Below are positions 9,123 through 21,175 of a DNA stretch of 32,878 bases, one piece after another. A program made the translations under genes and the position numbers. How positions within the stretch are numbered: the stretch's first letter is position 1; every line of letters begins with the position of its first letter. Below the pieces are notes generated by a model that saw only the letters and a program-made list of their open reading frames with translations, was not told the DNA's origin and searched no databases. Source of the stretch: Bacteroidota bacterium. GTDB lineage: Bacteria > Bacteroidota > Ignavibacteria > Kapaibacteriales > UBA961. Where the stretch lies: positions 79,844 through 112,721 of the forward strand of contig JAFDZU010000003.1 of the NCBI GenBank assembly GCA_018266765.1. Reading direction: 5' to 3'.

Positions 9123-12100
9123 ATGAAAACTTACTTCTTTCTACTCATACTTTTATTTGGTGGAGTATGTGCACAGGGACAATTATCAGTCAATCTTATA
9201 ATGTCGCCCAATCCTTCACCGTATCTTTCAGATTGGCAAACTCGGCAAGAAACTGCAAGATTTATTGTTCGGAATAATTCTACGCAACCAACAGTTGTTA
9301 AAATTACTACTAAAGTTTATGGTGGAGGTGGCAGTAATCTTCTCGTGGAAACGCAAGCTAATAAAATGCAACCAATTACGCTTCCACCATTCCAAACTCT
9401 TACATTCTTTGCAGAGGAAGCTATTCCGCTCTCTGCTGTAAAATTTTATGGAACTGCAAGCGAAGTAACGATTAGAACTGGAAAAATTCCGGCAGATAAT
9501 TACAAAATTTGTATAGGATTGACGGATATAACGGGAAGTCAATCACTTACTGAACCAAGTTGTGGAAATTTCAGAATTGAATCCTATCAGCCGCCACGGT
9601 TACTTTCGCCATGTTTTACGGAATCTCAACAGCCGATTACAGTCCAGCAAGCAAATTCACTTACGTTTCAGTGGACAGGAATTTTGCCGAGCTATACCGC
9701 AGGTCAGGTTTTTTGTCATTTTACACTATGTGAAGTATTGCCCGGACAAACTCCGCTTCAAGCAATGATTTCAAACCAACCAATTATTAGCCAAATAGTT
9801 CTCTCGACGCAACTTACCATCACGCCCGATATGGGAATATTCCAACCCGGCAAAACGTATGCGTGGGGTGTGCAGTCCACTGATCAATTCGACAGACCTA
9901 TCGGAGAACCGGATGGACGTTCTAATATTTGTACCTTTTCTACCCAACAGTCCGTACTCACACAATGTCCTTGCGTACCTTGTTTTGTGAGAATTCTCCA
10001 ATCAAGTGGTGGAACTATGGTTGGAACTTCCTCTGCTGTAAATGCCGGTTCTGAATATACTTTTACAGCGGAAGTAGAAACAAGCTGTCCGAACGGTTGC
10101 CCTGCTACTATTCTGCGTGGTACTTGGACAGTTACGTTTACAGGTTCTGACGGAAAAACCTCAACTATAACGGGTGGAGGAGGTTCTATAAAATTCACTC
10201 CTCCCTCAAGCGGAAAAATTCATATTGAGTTGACAGGTTTTAAAGTGTATTGCGGGAATTCTGCGGTCTGTAATTGTAATAATGCTTCACTTGACGTAAC
10301 TGTTTCGGGCGGAGGTGGAACAATTGACGGCGGTGGTGGTGGCACAACCGAAGGTGGTGGCACAACAACAACTACCGGAGACCCGACTCACACAACAACC
10401 ACAACACTTTGCCCCTGTGGCCCTTGCAAAACAAAGGGAATCAATGTTAATGGAAATCTTTGGGTCGATAAAACCGTTATAACAGAGTGGGGGTGCAAGG
10501 GTGGTGATTATGATTTTGTTTTGGAAGTCAGTCCTAATTGTATCAAACCATGTCCGCCAACACTTACAGCAGTATGGCAGGTAGATTTCTACGACGAAAA
10601 CGGAAAAAAAACAGGTGGCTCATCTGCAAATGGCACTTCAACTTCATATAAAGTTCCACCCAAACAAGAAGGAAAACTTGTTGTTACATTCTCGGATATT
10701 AAGCTCAAATGTGGGAATTCAGGTGTATGTTTATGTCCCTCGGCTACCATTACAATTGTATTTGGTTGCAGTCATTTCCCACCACCCGATACTACGACCG
10801 ACAAAGGATGTAAAGCGCCGGTAATTATATCGGAAACAGCTACTCCAATTTCCCTTGGAGCGAGATTAGATTCACCAGAAACATTCCCTTATCCTCGCGC
10901 TGTGCCAATAAGAGCAATAGGTTATGACTGGGATTGGGCAACAATTCTTTGTAAATATTGCGAAAGCGATAAAAAATCCGTGCTTCGCAAGCCCGTTCGG
11001 GATGTAGTATCGAAATATAATTGGGTGCTTGGTGGCCCGGGATCTCTTAATTCTCCGGCAGATGTGAAGGAACTTGAAAAAATTGCTACACAAATTGATT
11101 CGATAGCCGCACAAATTGCTTCCAAAAAAGCAAAAATAGATTCGCTCGAAGCAGAAAAAGTGAATATTCCAAAACGGCTTAAAGCTCGTCAGGAAAAAGC
11201 CAAAAAACAGATTTCTGAACTTGATGATTTGCTGATTACAATAGATAAATCAATTGCCTCACTCAAAGATTCATTGAAACAAATTACCGCACAAAAGCTA
11301 ACTTCGGAGCGAAAACGAGACGAATTAGAAAAACAAATTACTTCGTTAAAATCTGATATTGGTAAAGACACAACTTCTATCGCAGAGCTGAAAATTAAAT
11401 CTGAAAATAAACCACAACCTAGTGAAATAGCTTTGCTTGCAAAGGTAGATGCCCAGAGGAAAGTGGTGGAAAAAGCTGAGTCTGACTTATCTAAACGTGA
11501 GGAAGAAGTGATTTCACAATCCAAAACATTAGAAAAAGACTTAGCCAAAAGTTTGGATGCAATGCAAGCCGCAAGCAATGAATACCAACGTCTGAAAGCA
11601 GAATTAGATAAAGCAAATAAAACACTGATAAAAAATATAGCAGTCATTGCTGCAAATCCTGTGTATGCTGCATATTTTGGAAGACTAAAAGATTGGACTG
11701 ACAAATTTAATGCTCATGTAAATGAATTTTTACCGGAACACCGAGCCGAACTTTCCGGACTTGAAACCGCCGCACTCAAAATTTGCGACTCAATTGCCTC
11801 CGGTACTCTGCCACTCAAAAAGCGAGTAGAACTTTCTGATAAATTTGCAGTAAAATTAAAGGCACTCATGGGTAATGCCAAAGGTAAATGTGCTGCAAAA
11901 TCCACGGATGCTCTGCGAAAAGGATGTGCTGATGCTCTTGCAATTGTTGAGCTTGCTGCTGATAAACTTATTTCGGCAGTCGCAGCAGTTGCTCGTGAAA
12001 TTCTCAAGCCAAGTATCATTGTAACATGGAAAACAAATTCTTATAAAGTTGCACTGTTGGAAGCGCAAACCAAAAAAGCGGAGGACGATGCAAGAGCAAA

Positions 12101-15100
12101 AGCGAAGAGTTATGATGCGGCTTTGGCAGGATTTGCAAAATCAATTGAAGCACTCGAAGATAAAAGACGTTCAGCGAAAGATAAACTTAATGTAGAAAAT
12201 GAAACTCTCGGAATTCTAAGTCGTGAGTATTCTGATATGGCTTTTGCACGTGAGAATGATTTTCTAATTAACCGAGAAAAATATCTTGGAGAGCTTCATG
12301 AATTGGAAGTAAAAGTACTTCTGGAGAATGAAAAGCTGATAGGATTAATTGAAAAGCGCAATACAGAAATTCAACGTATCGTTCTACTGGAAGGAATTAT
12401 TCAAGGGCTTGAACGTCAAATTAATCAAGCAGTTAATGACAAAAAAGACCTAACTAAATCCAAAGAAGAACTCTCGAAAATCCTTGCTGAAACCCCCGAC
12501 GCTGTCTTGAAAACGATTCAATCGGAAATAGATAAACTTAAAACTGAACTTGCCTCGCTTGAAGATGGGCTAAAATTACTCAAAGACAAAGAAGCAAAAG
12601 CAAGTGCGCCAAAGAAAATTGCATTTGGTGAGATTGTCTATTACTGTCCGCCTCCGCTTGAAGAAGTAATGAAGGATAAGCCGAAATTCGAGGCATTGAA
12701 AGATTCAGTACGGGTTGCTGAATTAGAATTAGAAGTAGCAAAAGCTGTAAAAGCCACTTCGCAAGGTCGGCTATTATCCGAGTTAGAACGTATTGCCGCG
12801 GCGATGATGAAATTCAAAACGGCCTCGGATAATATTCCGGATTTGGAAAAAAAATACAATGATGCTAAAGCAAAGCAAACAGCAAATGCTGTTGCTAAAA
12901 AACTTGATAATTCAAAAAAAGAAAAAGCACTTGCAGATGCCACTGCACGAGCACAAAAGAGACAAACTACCGCCGAAGACAAGCAAAAACAAGCTCTTGA
13001 AGACGCAGATAAAGCAAAAAAAGAACTCGCCGATGCTAAAAAATCGAAGAAAGATTTAGATAATAGTGCTGATAAAAAGCGAATGGAATATCTCAAAAGT
13101 GTTCACGAAAGGATGGAGCAAGAGAAAAAGGTAGCCGAGGTTGAAAAAGAATTAAAATCCGGTGCTGAATCCATCAAAAAAGAAGTTGAAGTATTGAAAG
13201 CAATGAACAAAGATTCTGTGAGAATAAATGCACGAAGAGAACAAGCAGAATTTAATAAAAACCAAAGTGAAGTGACAAAATTGCTCGCAGAATTAGCTTT
13301 GCAAAAAGATAAAATTTCTTCTCAAAATACAAAAATTGCAGAGTTGGCAGCCAGACAGAAAGTCCTTGAAGCAAAACATAAAAAAGAAGTTGAAGAACTT
13401 GCCAAGGCATTAAAAGAAGAAGCGGAAAAAGGTTATGACCTTAATGAGACCAACAAAGATCGAAAATTAGCAGAGCAAAAGGTTAATACGTTAAACGAAA
13501 AATTGGGTGCTTCTCTTGATAAATCAGCTGATGCACAAAATGCGGCAACAAATTCAAAACAAAGAGCTTCTGAGCTTAAAGCAAAACTTGATACTCTTAA
13601 AAATGAACCGGTTGACAACGAAAAATATAATAATCTTAAAGATGAAGCTACTGCCGCAAAAGAAGAACTTGACAATGCGATAAAAAGTAAAGATGACGCT
13701 GAAAAAACGGTAAATGATGCCCTTGCTTCTAAGAAAAAAATCGAGGGCGAGGCAAAAGAGCAGTTTGAGAAAGCAAAAGAAAAACTCAAATCATCGAAGA
13801 AAAACTTACATGATTTTCTCGTTGGTGAATTAAATACCGTGAAGTTTGATGCTGAACTGACAATTACAGCCGATGATGAAGTAATTGACGGATATCGCGC
13901 CAATGACGATGCCGTAACTATCACCCAAAAAATAATATATCCTGCGTCACGAATTCCTACGTTTCCAGAAATTCCTGCCAGTGACGGGTTAGGAATGCAG
14001 AGAAGCGGTGAAGATTGCCCACCAGCTTCTACATATTTTCCCAATGGTGGAATCGCCGAAAATCCTGCTTCAATTGCAATGCAAGAGCCGCGAACAATTG
14101 CATTGATTTACAAAAAAGGTGAACCTCTATGGCGTGAATGGCCGGTGATTCGCAACGATGCGCCGATACTTGCTAAGGATGTTGTTCAAATGGAAAGTAG
14201 CGGTACCGATGCTGATATCATCAGATATCTCTGTGGCGGAAGTGGTGCTAATAACTGTCCGCCTTCATTGCCAATTGAAGGTGGTATTGCCGATGTCGTT
14301 CATTTGGATTGGAGTGGCGGAGTGTTTATCAACGGAACAAATTTCAATCATGTATTGACTGAAACTCCGCTTACGGGTATGCCGAAATGCAGTGATAAAA
14401 TTGAATACAGTATTGCATATACTGCAAGTGAACTCGCGGCTGATGACCCCAAAAAATCGAAATTTAATCCTGAAATTACAGCAGGGGTATTAGTAGAAAT
14501 TCCTGATTCAATAAAAGGTTCGCCAAAAGAATTTGCTCCACTGTCACCACGAATAGTAACAGGCGACCATAAGGGGTTAGATGGTGAAACGATAGAATTT
14601 ACTGCAAAACTTACAAGCGGAAATGCTACAAAATTTGGATTTATTGATGCAAATAAAACCATGGTAGCAGGCGACGACCCGGGAGCAAAGCCCGAATATT
14701 CGATGAAAACTAAAAATGGCGGCTATGCCGAGGTGTTATTCTATTATGGAGAAGGAGTTGGAGAATTTGAAGTAACTATTAATTGGAAACGCGGAAAATC
14801 GTGTGATGAAAAGAAATTCAAAGCTAAAACTCCGCTTCATTTACAGTTTTTACGGCTTGCCGGAACTGCTCCCGAGCCGGCATGGAAAGCGGCACTTGCA
14901 ATTTGGGATGGAAAGGCAACTCCGGCAACTGCCTCGATGCCTTCGACTTCCGAAGAAAAATCAGCTAAACTATACAACACTCCACCTGCTGACGCAGTAG
15001 CCGGACTCTTGGACGAAAAACGGGACGGAGTTAATGGAGTATCAATTGAATTTAAGAAAACAGCTGGGAAGATTATAGTTAAACCTACATCTGATTCTAC

Positions 15101-17618
15101 GAAAATCTTTGGAATAGCAAGAACTACGGTTGATAGTGTACCTAAAAAAGAAGGTGAAGAAGCCAAGTTATCAGCAAAATGTGCAGATGCTAAAATCCGC
15201 GAATTATGCGAACCAAAAGAGGTGGAAGGTTCATTTAAGGTTTCTAAAATTAAGCAGTTCAAGATTGGATTCCCGGAATTACCATTTATTGTGGTATTAG
15301 AAGAAGATGCAATCTGCGGACAACCAATTACCGGAAAAGGGAAAATTAAGCCCGAATTATCAGGTATTCCTTCGGAATTTTTTAAGGATTATTTAGATGT
15401 CGGGATTGAAGTAGATGTAAAGGATGTGGAGTTTGACGGGTGTGCAAGTGGCGGAGAAATTCCAGTGGCTCAAAGCGGAACTGCAACATGGAGCGGCAAA
15501 ATCAAAAAGAGTTTTCGAGGCTTTGATTTTACAATTACATCACTTGGACTTGCGGCACAACGAACAGGACTCTTAGGTGGATATTTTACCCATAAAACGG
15601 CACTTCCCGATTCAGTAATATTTGAGGCAAGTGTGAAGGGAGATGGCAATTTCATCTGTGCTGTCAGCAATTTGCCCGAAGTCTCAATAAAAGGTTTCAA
15701 ACTCAAAAAAGGTGCAGCTGTTGTGCTGGATATGGATGCAACAGTTAATCCCGAAAATGCTAAAGTACCTGATGATTTCCAAGGGGTTATCATCGGTGCG
15801 GCAACAATTGAATTTCCCGAAGCACTCTCAAAAAGTGACGAACTTCGCACAACACTCTCGGTAAAAGATTTTTCAATCGGAACGGGCGGGGTTTCGGGTG
15901 AGGCATCACTTTCTTCAGAATTAAGAATGGGAATTGGCGGCTATTCATTCACTGCCAAAAAATTAACCTTGAATTTTGAAAAAAGTGAACTCGATACGAA
16001 AAAGTTTGCGCTCGCCGGAACATTTGAATTCCCGAAACCATTCGATGGAGCAATTGATGCAGAAATTTCAAAAGATGGTGAAAATTGGAAATGTGCGCTT
16101 TCGACCGAACGTCCAGTGGCTATTCCTACGCTTGGGATTGTCTTTCATTTAGGCGGCGAAAATGCAATTGAGAAGAAAGGTGATTTGTATTCTTTAACGC
16201 TGAATGGTAGCATTGCCTCCAAAGATAGATTTGGTCAAATTGACATAAATAATTTGGTGATTAAATCCGATGGAAGTGCCAAAGGTGCTGTAAAAATCGG
16301 AAAAAATCCGACGACTAAAGTCAATAAAGGATTTGGATTTGAGGTAAAGTCATTAGAATTTGAATTTGACCCGCCGAATCAAAAATATGAATTAACAATG
16401 AAAGGTGGAATCAGCTTCGAGAATTTGGGAATAAAAACAATCGAAGGTACGATAACAGTTGGCGGTGGTTCGGTATTTTCGATTCAAATTGATAGTATTA
16501 ATATTGAGAAAAATCCGGTTACATTTCGAGGAAAATTTACCTATAATAATAATGAATTCCTTGCTAAAGTTGATGTCAGTGTAAAAAATTTGGGTGGCGG
16601 CATTAAAGGAATGGTAATAATCGGAACGCAACCGATTGATGAAACAAAGTCGTATTCGTATTGGTATGGCGAGCTTGAAGTTAGGGGCGACAAAGGCATA
16701 CCGCTTGGTCAGACAGGATTATCGTTACTTGCTTTAGGTGGAGGAGTTGGGTCAAATTATAATCCGCCAATCGGCTCGCAAAAAGGTTCGCCGGTGAATG
16801 CAAACGGAGGAATTGCTTTAAAAGCATCTGTAACTATTGGCGATGCACCTTCAAGCGGAAAAGTATTTGCAGGACGGCTTTCGATGGTACTGTTTCCGGC
16901 TGCAGGATATTTCAGTTTGAACGGGAAAGCATGGCTGTTGGATAAAGAAGATGCAATTTTTGGCGAAGGACAATTGAATATGCGGTGGGATTCACCGGCA
17001 CGGTTGGACGGGAAATTACGATTGTTTGTAGGGATTATGGATGCAAAAGGCCGAATTGCGAAGTTTAACAGTGAGGTAGAGTTCCGTTATGCCGGTGGCA
17101 GGGATTGGTATATTCGCAGTAATGACATTAGCGGGCAAGTGATGGACAAACTTCGTTTTAAAGGCACTTTTGATGTTCAGCCAGAAAAAGTATGGGTGAA
17201 AGGAATGCTAGCTTTTGATTTGGGTGGACCTGTCGAAGGTGACGGTACTGAAAAAGACGGAGATAAACCTGCTGTTAAGAAGAAAGATTTCCTTAATGTT
17301 GAAGCGCATCTCGAAGCAAAAGCAGAAGTACTCTATAACAAACCACCTGCTGAAAATGCCACTCGTGAAGTTGGCTGGAAAATGTTTCATGCAAGTGCTG
17401 ATTTTAAAGGAACTTGGGATGTCAGTATCAATCTAGCGGATTTATTAAGCAAAACTATTACTTCGGGTGATATAAAAGTAGGATGTGTGATAGATGCAAC
17501 TGAAAAGCACTTGAAATTTGAAGCAAAAGCTGATGTAGTAGCTGAGGTTCCCGGGATTTTTAGCAATTGGCATTTTGAATTCCATGATGTAAACCTTGGT
17601 TATGAAACTGATATATAA
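9123..17618 (+). CDS. Giant exported multidomain protein (2831 aa): Ig-like, coiled-coil and beta-repeat regions
   Basis: The start is ATG 9123 after GAAGAAAGG. (1) A signal peptide, residues 1-20 (MKTYFFLLILLFGGVCAQGQ). (2) A beta-rich domain at 20-275 whose opening (LSVNLIMSPNPSPYLSDW) and 'IPADNYKICIGLTD...SCGNFRI' resemble N-termini of large Bacteroidota/Ignavibacteria surface proteins. (3) Two similar Ig-like modules starting CPCVPC (about 282) and CPCGPC (about 430), each ending in CGNSxVCxC, joined by a Gly/Thr linker. (4) A beta segment to about 645 (YNWVLGGPGSL). (5) Two long Lys/Glu/Ala coiled coils, about 646-1165 and 1187-1570, separated by FGEIVYYCPPP. (6) About 1260 residues of repetitive beta structure, 1570-2831, without transmembrane segments or a T9SS-like tail. 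The coiled coils seem to interrupt an Ig-like region. It lies in an operon with the barrel and FN3 genes. Possible roles are surface fibre, adhesin or periplasm-spanning bridge; none is proven. Confidence 0.85.
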   Translation: MKTYFFLLILLFGGVCAQGQLSVNLIMSPNPSPYLSDWQTRQETARFIVRNNSTQPTVVKITTKVYGGGGSNLLVETQANKMQPITLPPFQTLTFFAEEAIPLSAVKFYGTASEVTIRTGKIPADNYKICIGLTDITGSQSLTEPSCGNFRIESYQPPRLLSPCFTESQQPITVQQANSLTFQWTGILPSYTAGQVFCHFTLCEVLPGQTPLQAMISNQPIISQIVLSTQLTITPDMGIFQPGKTYAWGVQSTDQFDRPIGEPDGRSNICTFSTQQSVLTQCPCVPCFVRILQSSGGTMVGTSSAVNAGSEYTFTAEVETSCPNGCPATILRGTWTVTFTGSDGKTSTITGGGGSIKFTPPSSGKIHIELTGFKVYCGNSAVCNCNNASLDVTVSGGGGTIDGGGGGTTEGGGTTTTTGDPTHTTTTTLCPCGPCKTKGINVNGNLWVDKTVITEWGCKGGDYDFVLEVSPNCIKPCPPTLTAVWQVDFYDENGKKTGGSSANGTSTSYKVPPKQEGKLVVTFSDIKLKCGNSGVCLCPSATITIVFGCSHFPPPDTTTDKGCKAPVIISETATPISLGARLDSPETFPYPRAVPIRAIGYDWDWATILCKYCESDKKSVLRKPVRDVVSKYNWVLGGPGSLNSPADVKELEKIATQIDSIAAQIASKKAKIDSLEAEKVNIPKRLKARQEKAKKQISELDDLLITIDKSIASLKDSLKQITAQKLTSERKRDELEKQITSLKSDIGKDTTSIAELKIKSENKPQPSEIALLAKVDAQRKVVEKAESDLSKREEEVISQSKTLEKDLAKSLDAMQAASNEYQRLKAELDKANKTLIKNIAVIAANPVYAAYFGRLKDWTDKFNAHVNEFLPEHRAELSGLETAALKICDSIASGTLPLKKRVELSDKFAVKLKALMGNAKGKCAAKSTDALRKGCADALAIVELAADKLISAVAAVAREILKPSIIVTWKTNSYKVALLEAQTKKAEDDARAKAKSYDAALAGFAKSIEALEDKRRSAKDKLNVENETLGILSREYSDMAFARENDFLINREKYLGELHELEVKVLLENEKLIGLIEKRNTEIQRIVLLEGIIQGLERQINQAVNDKKDLTKSKEELSKILAETPDAVLKTIQSEIDKLKTELASLEDGLKLLKDKEAKASAPKKIAFGEIVYYCPPPLEEVMKDKPKFEALKDSVRVAELELEVAKAVKATSQGRLLSELERIAAAMMKFKTASDNIPDLEKKYNDAKAKQTANAVAKKLDNSKKEKALADATARAQKRQTTAEDKQKQALEDADKAKKELADAKKSKKDLDNSADKKRMEYLKSVHERMEQEKKVAEVEKELKSGAESIKKEVEVLKAMNKDSVRINARREQAEFNKNQSEVTKLLAELALQKDKISSQNTKIAELAARQKVLEAKHKKEVEELAKALKEEAEKGYDLNETNKDRKLAEQKVNTLNEKLGASLDKSADAQNAATNSKQRASELKAKLDTLKNEPVDNEKYNNLKDEATAAKEELDNAIKSKDDAEKTVNDALASKKKIEGEAKEQFEKAKEKLKSSKKNLHDFLVGELNTVKFDAELTITADDEVIDGYRANDDAVTITQKIIYPASRIPTFPEIPASDGLGMQRSGEDCPPASTYFPNGGIAENPASIAMQEPRTIALIYKKGEPLWREWPVIRNDAPILAKDVVQMESSGTDADIIRYLCGGSGANNCPPSLPIEGGIADVVHLDWSGGVFINGTNFNHVLTETPLTGMPKCSDKIEYSIAYTASELAADDPKKSKFNPEITAGVLVEIPDSIKGSPKEFAPLSPRIVTGDHKGLDGETIEFTAKLTSGNATKFGFIDANKTMVAGDDPGAKPEYSMKTKNGGYAEVLFYYGEGVGEFEVTINWKRGKSCDEKKFKAKTPLHLQFLRLAGTAPEPAWKAALAIWDGKATPATASMPSTSEEKSAKLYNTPPADAVAGLLDEKRDGVNGVSIEFKKTAGKIIVKPTSDSTKIFGIARTTVDSVPKKEGEEAKLSAKCADAKIRELCEPKEVEGSFKVSKIKQFKIGFPELPFIVVLEEDAICGQPITGKGKIKPELSGIPSEFFKDYLDVGIEVDVKDVEFDGCASGGEIPVAQSGTATWSGKIKKSFRGFDFTITSLGLAAQRTGLLGGYFTHKTALPDSVIFEASVKGDGNFICAVSNLPEVSIKGFKLKKGAAVVLDMDATVNPENAKVPDDFQGVIIGAATIEFPEALSKSDELRTTLSVKDFSIGTGGVSGEASLSSELRMGIGGYSFTAKKLTLNFEKSELDTKKFALAGTFEFPKPFDGAIDAEISKDGENWKCALSTERPVAIPTLGIVFHLGGENAIEKKGDLYSLTLNGSIASKDRFGQIDINNLVIKSDGSAKGAVKIGKNPTTKVNKGFGFEVKSLEFEFDPPNQKYELTMKGGISFENLGIKTIEGTITVGGGSVFSIQIDSINIEKNPVTFRGKFTYNNNEFLAKVDVSVKNLGGGIKGMVIIGTQPIDETKSYSYWYGELEVRGDKGIPLGQTGLSLLALGGGVGSNYNPPIGSQKGSPVNANGGIALKASVTIGDAPSSGKVFAGRLSMVLFPAAGYFSLNGKAWLLDKEDAIFGEGQLNMRWDSPARLDGKLRLFVGIMDAKGRIAKFNSEVEFRYAGGRDWYIRSNDISGQVMDKLRFKGTFDVQPEKVWVKGMLAFDLGGPVEGDGTEKDGDKPAVKKKDFLNVEAHLEAKAEVLYNKPPAENATREVGWKMFHASADFKGTWDVSINLADLLSKTITSGDIKVGCVIDATEKHLKFEAKADVVAEVPGIFSNWHFEFHDVNLGYETDI

Positions 17619-20301: not shown

Positions 20302-20395
20302 ACAGCTTTACATGTGCAGTAAGACAATCTGTGTTTTCAAACGGCAATATATCATATTACATCGGAAAAATTACTGCTTTCTATGATTTTTTTTG

Positions 20396-20470
20396 AACCA
20401 CAGAGACACAATAGGTAACAATAGGTGCAGAGTTCAATGAAACTTCCTTCTATTTGTGTATTTTTGTGGA
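20396..20470. repeat. Degenerate inverted repeat of the CCACAGAGACACA type
   Basis: The left arm CCACAGAGACACAA (20398-20411) is answered by TTGTGTATTTTTGTGG (20454-20469), an imperfect reverse complement with a 2-nt length difference. The intervening 42 nt contain a short direct repeat (AATAGGT at 20411-20417 and again at 20421-20427). Similar 'ACCACAGAGACACAGAG' strings recur between genes in many environmental genomes (recollection, not checked), so this is probably a decayed copy of a dispersed intergenic element. Confidence 0.5.
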
Positions 20471-20512
20471 TAGGGAGAAGTTATTTAGAGTGAAACATTC
20501 CTCTATAAGCAA

Positions 20513-20522
20513 GTTAACGGCT
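20513..20522. repeat. Left boundary repeat of the immunity-gene unit
   Basis: GTTAACGGCT here is the reverse complement, with one mismatch, of AGCCGCTAAC at 21009-21018, immediately after the immunity gene. The pair brackets one gene, as expected for the two ends of an integron-type cassette or a small mobile unit. The 10-nt length alone is weak evidence. Confidence 0.45.
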
Positions 20523-20535
20523 ATTTTAAAAAAAA

Positions 20536-21003
20536 ATGACAACAGACAGCGACATATACTTTGAACTTACAGGCTCAGGTGACATGGTCAGACTTGAACC
20601 GAAAACATTAGCCAGAGGAAGTGGTGAGCTTACGGATTGGGATAGAAACTGGATAGATACTTTAGTTACAGTTAAGGGAGGACATTTTACAGGACAGTTT
20701 GAGGCTATGTTTATGACAACGGATTTTGAAAGATTCAAACAAGAACTCAAGCCTCTTTATGACAACTTAAAGGGAACAGCAAAATTCTCAGGATTTGAAG
20801 GACAATTAGAATTAAAAATTAAAGGAGACGGTATCGGACACTTTGAGGTAGACGTATTAGCTTGTGACCAACCTGGAATTGGTGGTGTATTGACTTTCAA
20901 AATGTCTTTTGACCAGACAATAATTAAAGACCTTGTTGAACAACTTGACAGCATAACAAGAAAATTTCCAATTGTTGGAGACTTCAATATTAAAAATGAA
21001 TAA
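20536..21003 (+). CDS. WapI/DUF6228-type orphan immunity protein
   Basis: The 155-aa cytoplasmic protein has no signal or membrane segment. Its pattern is characteristic of the WapI family of contact-toxin immunity proteins as I recall it: an opening strand ending MVRLEP, WDRNWIDTLVTVKGGHFTGQF, DFERFKQELKPLYDNLKG, FEGQLELKIKGDGIGHFEV and LTFKMSFDQTIIKDLVEQLD. Such proteins neutralise the C-terminal nuclease of a WapA/Rhs-like toxin. No toxin gene is nearby and the neighbours are housekeeping or envelope genes, so this looks like an orphan acquired for protection. The ATG follows a run of A's without a Shine-Dalgarno site. The gene sits between inverted 10-nt repeats and is followed within 5 nt by an attC-like hairpin, which suggests transfer as a unit. 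The family call is from pattern recognition only. Confidence 0.68.
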   Translation: MTTDSDIYFELTGSGDMVRLEPKTLARGSGELTDWDRNWIDTLVTVKGGHFTGQFEAMFMTTDFERFKQELKPLYDNLKGTAKFSGFEGQLELKIKGDGIGHFEVDVLACDQPGIGGVLTFKMSFDQTIIKDLVEQLDSITRKFPIVGDFNIKNE

Positions 21004-21008
21004 AAAGT

Positions 21009-21067
21009 AGCCGCTAACAGGCGTTTTGCAATAGCCGAGGTTTTATTCTCCGCAGATAGTTTAGTGG
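21009..21067. repeat. attC-like imperfect hairpin after the immunity gene
   Basis: CCGCTAAC (21011-21018) pairs with TTTAGTGG (21060-21067) through seven pairs including one G-T wobble. An inner stem GCCGAG (21034-21039) pairs with CTCCGC (21048-21053) with one C-C mismatch. Between the stems lies an unpaired region. Outer and inner imperfect stems with an interior loop resemble the folded bottom strand of integron attC sites, and a G-TT step is present at 21059-21060. The core does not match the classical GTTRRRY perfectly. It has no T-run, so it is not an ordinary terminator. Confidence 0.45.
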
Positions 21068-21175
21068 TAGCAGGAAGTTTAGTTCTCCACATCAACATTT
21101 GAGCAAAAAATACAACAATTCAAGCCATAATTATTTTTTCTTAAATCTAATTAATCTAACTCCTTACCTACCCTA

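Follow-up and report, generated by a model that had tools for sequence, protein, structure and literature searches.

A WapI-like immunity gene in a putative mobile gene cassette and evidence for a gene-capture system widespread in Bacteroidota

Overall, we consider it probable (about 0.85) that positions 20514 to about 21111 of the 32.9-kb stretch of DNA analysed here (the window) represent a single gene cassette belonging to an integron-like system of the Bacteroidota, which was captured at an attI-like site whose integrase has since been lost. The features behind this reading were established by sequence comparison, namely hairpins and their arrays, complementary cassette ends, an attI-like motif, linkage to an integrase, and identical cassettes bordered by G|TT in different contexts. 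Judged from these features, the immunity gene of the window sits in what appears to be a mobile gene cassette, and the corresponding gene-capture system appears to be widespread in Bacteroidota and to move resistance genes, e.g. tet(X2), as well. The features of the window are compiled in Table 1.

Table 1. Features of the cassette and its left flank in the window
Feature	Position	Strand	Basis or remark
Stretch of ~77 bp with 77% identity to the segment before another cassette of the own genome (contig C58)	20440..20516	+	
TATTTTTG, matches TAnnTTTG	20459..20466	+	~40 bp upstream of the attI-like motif/left end
TATAAGCAAGTTA, attI-like motif	20504..20516	+	Motif TATA-N3-5-AGTTR
Cassette left end, R'-type box, GTTAACGGCT	20513..20522	+	Sequence; array-wide end complementarity
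Cassette gene, 155-aa WapI-like immunity protein (PF24716)	20536..21003	+	E 1.4e-25
Start of the recombination hairpin belonging to the cassette, R''-type box, AGCCGCTAAC	21009..21018	+	
attC-like hairpin, truncated, with left arm and apex present and right arm absent	21009..21111	+	Covariance model

The initial annotation had described an immunity gene that is enclosed by inverted ends. Both parts of this description proved to be correct, as the two ends are complementary at nine of ten positions with one open reading frame (ORF) between them, and the encoded protein is a WapI-like immunity protein (Table 1), which presumably protects against a toxin. The ends are located where they had been placed, but the feature as a whole is larger and reaches to about 21111 on the right and to the attI-like motif at 20504 on the left. 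A relative of the WapI-type protein (57% at the amino acid level) is also cassette-borne (GTTAGCACC...GGTGCTAAC) in G165, a genome from outside the class of the window. Elsewhere in the window, an ORF of 2831 aa extends from 9123 to 17618. Taken alone, the pair of inverted ends is not significant, since an equally good pair arose in 45 of 400 cases when the two 50-nt flanks were dinucleotide-shuffled. The question was therefore turned to the relatives of the window unit, and it is in the context of the arrays and of the hairpin family that the inverted ends gain significance.

The segment starting at 21009 recurs in the own genome of the window and in its relatives, typically directly behind a small gene. 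Strings of the type GCCGCTAAC...TTAGTGGT next to small genes, which the initial annotation had mentioned, do exist: blastn matched the segment to five other places in the own genome, the covariance model detected 13 other copies of the hairpin there, and the repeats adjoin many other small genes. The full copies are hairpins of about 136 nt and represent imperfect palindromes bounded by R''/R' boxes, which also applies to the window copy in part. An outer box of 9 bp is followed by an asymmetric loop with 1 nt on the left and 5 nt on the right side and, further inward, by 10 bp, a small loop, 9 bp and a variable top. Most of the boxes are of the type GTTAGCGGC, GTTATGCCT or GTTGTACGA and do not conform to the canonical core GTTRRRY. 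Among 83 copies, two-sided changes occur at 42 of the 48 hairpin pairs, and the covariation score amounts to 0.378 compared to 0.136 for shuffled and at most 0.081 for slid alignments, a score that benefits from the fitting of the alignment to the structure. The bottom strand gave the better fold with DNA parameters in both sites tried, a sample too small for a conclusion; folding with RNA energies refers to the top strand only. In the window copy, model positions 31-102 map to 21040-21111, and its folding is no better than that of shuffled sequences (z -0.03).

Of 123 genomes of the order, 29 contain the hairpin; across the Bacteroidota, 118 of 395 genomes and 65 of 170 genera do. All hairpin counts derive from the covariance model R1, which was built from seven copies and is narrow, so that they represent minima; the site of blaVEB-1, for instance, was missed by R1 and spotted by eye alone. 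Directly behind several hairpins in three loci (L087, L088 and L097), there are GTTCAGCAAGATTCGC...GCTCATCTTGC or near-identical palindromes, which we read as inserts of a second type at the borders of cassettes.

The hairpins stand in arrays, all on one strand. If a cassette closes into a circle, its left end should match the start of its own hairpin and not the other side of that hairpin, and this expectation was tested for 48 array intervals. At least six of the seven variable bases of the left end (GTTNNNNNN) are complementary to the start of the own hairpin in 31 intervals, compared to none of 48 within one hairpin and to a mean of 2.07 and a maximum of 9 in 10,000 shuffles. The earlier proposal that the start of the cassette is complementary to its own attC is thus supported across the arrays. 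The other 17 intervals fail the test, some of them perhaps because cassettes that escaped recognition, or inserts of another kind, lie in them. The longest ORF lies in cassette orientation in 71 of 75 cassettes (median length 911 bp), and the contents are diverse, comprising immunity, restriction enzymes, Shedu, HNH, mercury transport and resistance. Neighbouring cassettes of one genome (G004, L042 4254-6572) encode an efflux pump resembling Tet(A) and a dihydropteroate synthase resembling Sul3, and the two matches stay below the curated resistance cut-offs. In another locus (L228), two near-identical stretches of about 170 bp bounded by GTT (10150-10318 and 12240-12412) are perhaps cassettes without a gene.

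One could also regard the hairpins as terminators or as REP or MITE-like repeats that came to stand behind small genes by chance, the inverted ends of the window being likewise accidental. The palindromic nature and the dispersal of the hairpins agree with this, as does the lack of significance of the window end pair by itself. However, the complementarity of neighbouring borders across the arrays contradicts such an explanation, identical cassettes with sharp G|TT borders are found in different contexts (see below), and no Rfam family matches the hairpin, the window region or four arrays, so that we judge this explanation to be extremely improbable. Promoter or terminator repeats and a MITE were rejected. 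A pdif module (XerC/XerD) was rejected as well, since the sites described here are hairpins of about 136 nt, whereas pdif sites consist of 28 bp (11+6+11 bp; PMC7530245).

The left flank of the cassette is informative about the site of its capture. The attI-like motif TATA-N3-5-AGTTR is found within 250 nt after 16 of 25 integrases (shuffled mean 0.38, maximum 3), and the only + strand copy in the whole window is located exactly at the left end of the cassette, where the crossover presumably lies between G20513 and T20514. The sequence TAnnTTTG is the -7 promoter box of Bacteroidota, and such boxes follow 12 of 25 array integrases (shuffled mean 2.0); TATTTTTG is a possible cassette promoter, although a single 8-mer is weak by itself. 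The shared 77-bp stretch ends at the cassette boundary and is probably the remnant of an integration platform. Because of the attI-like motif and the 77 bp common to a second cassette site, the cassette and its flank look like a platform remnant minus its integrase.

The initial annotation had assumed a lone insertion, and indeed neither an integrase nor a second cassette was seen in the 32.9-kb window; a random insertion, however, is disfavoured by the attI-like motif and the 77-bp stretch directly upstream. A related possibility is that an integrase acting in trans inserted the cassette at a secondary chromosomal site that has never been a platform. The missing integrase and second cassette would fit this scenario, and so would the congeners, which lack any trace at this locus. 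The flanks of the cassette are not conserved in all relatives: in two congeners the homology stops at 20372 and is followed by a different, ribosomal-protein-S1-like gene and no cassette. A clean empty site for the window locus could not be reconstructed, since these congeners differ in sequence from 20372 onward. Against a secondary site speak the attI-like motif together with the TAnnTTTG box in the left flank and the fact that the 77 bp shared with another cassette site of the own genome end at the cassette border, and we therefore consider it rather unlikely. Our preferred reading, capture at a platform, implies that this platform lost its integrase. It counts against this reading that an intact integrase was not found in the own genome either, which has only a frameshifted copy on contig C22 and a 47-aa fragment on contig C21. 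In view of the frameshifted integrase and of the right arm missing from the window hairpin, the unit is probably a relic. A short 'TTTTTTTGAACCACAGAGACACAATAGG' repeat, several copies of which exist in the own genome, is located at 20388-20420 of the window.

The integrases that head the arrays possess the catalytic blocks of tyrosine recombinases (PF00589), and the best structural match of the integrase model is the IntI-DNA complex 2a3v (E 3.6e-16). Nevertheless, the IntI-specific domain of about 40 residues is absent from all 25 integrases (23 from arrays and two from resistance plasmids) and present in all four IntI proteins compared, with 65-66 versus 105-107 residues between the catalytic blocks. 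In a tree calculated with a quick method and containing many open forks, all 23 array integrases fall into a Bacteroidota clade (SH-aLRT 89), separate from IntI (100). Membership in the IntI-class integrons, as the comparison with integron cassettes had suggested, does therefore not hold. Within the 123 genomes of the order, integrase and hairpin occur together in 17, the integrase alone in 8, the hairpin alone in 12 and neither in 86 (p = 7e-8 with genomes counted as independent and relatedness ignored); 12 of the 29 hairpin-positive genomes thus lack the integrase clade. Among the best 80 integrase relatives in named genomes, the hairpins, where present, are located downstream on the integrase strand, with L143 and L155 as exceptions. 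There are two layouts, transcription being directed towards the cassettes for integrases that carry an extra domain at the N-terminus and away from them for several shorter ones. This extra domain of the co-directional integrases gave no Pfam match above cut-off. The first ~80 residues of the integrases of L099, L086, L115, L044, L042 and L133 represent such a domain with a conserved WS...K.W motif, and the integrase of L163 (683 aa) appears to carry more than one copy of it.

Cassettes have apparently been transferred as units. A MerTP cassette of Flavobacterium enshiense is also found in G023, a genome related to that of the window, with 86.5% over 1,446 bp, which is exactly one cassette ending at its two boxes. 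Identical copies of the 1,328-bp tet(X2) cassette are present in the G023 chromosome and in plasmids of five genera (hosts Bacteroides xylanisolvens, Myroides odoratimimus, Sphingobacterium faecium, Empedobacter brevis and Riemerella anatipestifer); they extend from G|TT to G|TT with sharp borders on both sides and have several different neighbours or flanks. In G023, the 3' end of an integrase is followed by the attI-like motif and by tet(X2), a class D beta-lactamase gene and aadS as three consecutive hairpin cassettes. The tet(X3) gene of Acinetobacter plasmids shares its start at GTTATGTGCC with the tet(X2) cassette and stands behind a truncated integrase of the Bacteroidota clade. The hairpin behind tet(X3) consists of a left arm that is cut short, and its last 32 bp are also found in plasmids that lack tet(X), indicating a boundary to a different element, probably ISVsa3/ISCR2. 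The integrase directly before blaVEB-3 in a Klebsiella plasmid belongs to the clade of the Bacteroidota array integrases as well, and the blaVEB-1 cassette, located among cassettes of the class 1 type, has a hairpin with the same 1/5 asymmetry (by eye), pointing to a Bacteroidota origin of this cassette. The respective regions are L231 6133-7754 for blaVEB-3 with its Bacteroidota-type integrase and L234 2500-3571 for the blaVEB-1 cassette.

The position of blaVEB-1 could also be taken as a sign that the window contains the remnant of an ordinary IntI-class integron (CALIN) and that the linked XerA-like recombinases are bystanders. The arrays do resemble integron arrays, and integrons detected by IntegronFinder 2.0 have been reported in Chlorobi, Ignavibacteriae and Salinibacter (PMC9024848). 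However, no match above the IntI cut-off was obtained in nine of the ten array-bearing relatives searched or in the own genome of the window, and around the one true IntI (G028, C101:10350-11285) no such hairpin lies within about 9 kb. Moreover, integrase linkage and the attI-like motif track the XerA-like clade, which makes an IntI-class remnant an improbable explanation.

The mechanism that we propose instead proceeds as follows. A tyrosine recombinase akin to IntI and to archaeal XerA, but devoid of the IntI-specific domain, would recombine the attC-like hairpins of about 136 nt with one another and would join them to the attI-like site (TATA-N3-5-AGTTR) next to its own gene, cutting at G|TT. 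The cassette would leave as a circle, in which the left end (GTTNNNNNN) joins the own hairpin and completes the site, and the circle would insert, always in the same orientation, either at attI or behind a cassette already present. As for the window, the WapI-type immunity gene would have been captured at an attI-like site, after which the adjoining integrase was lost and the right hairpin arm decayed or was deleted, so that the cassette would now be fixed. Both the catalysis of cassette recombination by the Bacteroidota integrase and the use of single-stranded hairpins as its substrate are what we infer from sequence comparison. According to the title of Messier and Roy 2001, as cited in PMC4792948 and PMC2426708, the IntI-specific domain is necessary for activity; since it is absent here, another way of recognising folded sites is called for.

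With the IntI-class integrons the system shares a tyrosine recombinase, an attI-like site, single-gene cassettes that stand in arrays and end in imperfect hairpins, the GTT crossover and a left end complementary to the cassette's own site. It differs from them by an integrase outside the IntI clade that often reads towards the cassettes, by boxes of 9-10 bp that are mostly not GTTRRRY and by the asymmetric loop behind the outer box; in the window, there is also no integrase beside the cassette. The Treponema integrons, described as intI integrons, are a precedent for the layout and do not indicate a relationship. An 'integron-like subgroup' of tyrosine recombinases has been defined (Smyshlyaev et al. 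2021, PMC8138268), whose members are not linked to cassette arrays or sites in the passages of that paper considered here. The 'xerD'-tet(X) units of Acinetobacter and Flavobacteriaceae (PMC7473080, PMC7530245, PMC7494873) contain, beside tet(X3), a recombinase that is a truncated member of the Bacteroidota clade, whereas in those papers mobilisation is tied to ISCR2. PMC7473080 left open whether tet(X) is moved by 'xerD', and the role of this gene has now become testable.

The integron surveys considered here select on the IntI-specific domain (PMC2426708, PMC9668308), and a cassette system without this domain would therefore be missed or be seen as orphan sites. An earlier description of such a system was not found in the open-licence papers of PubMed Central. 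We lean towards the broader view that the Bacteroidota have an integron lineage of their own, which recognises its folded sites without the domain, escaped these surveys, and is a main vehicle for genes of resistance (tet(X2), aadS and others), restriction and immunity within the phylum and outwards to Acinetobacter and Enterobacteria. If this is true, the IntI-specific domain is not the sole way to run a cassette system. In a 2025 study, IntegronFinder was applied to a Chryseobacterium indologenes with an OXA-347/tetX/aadS/ermF island and no integrons were reported (PMC12382657); in contrast, tet(X2), the class D beta-lactamase gene and aadS of G023 are the three consecutive hairpin cassettes described above.
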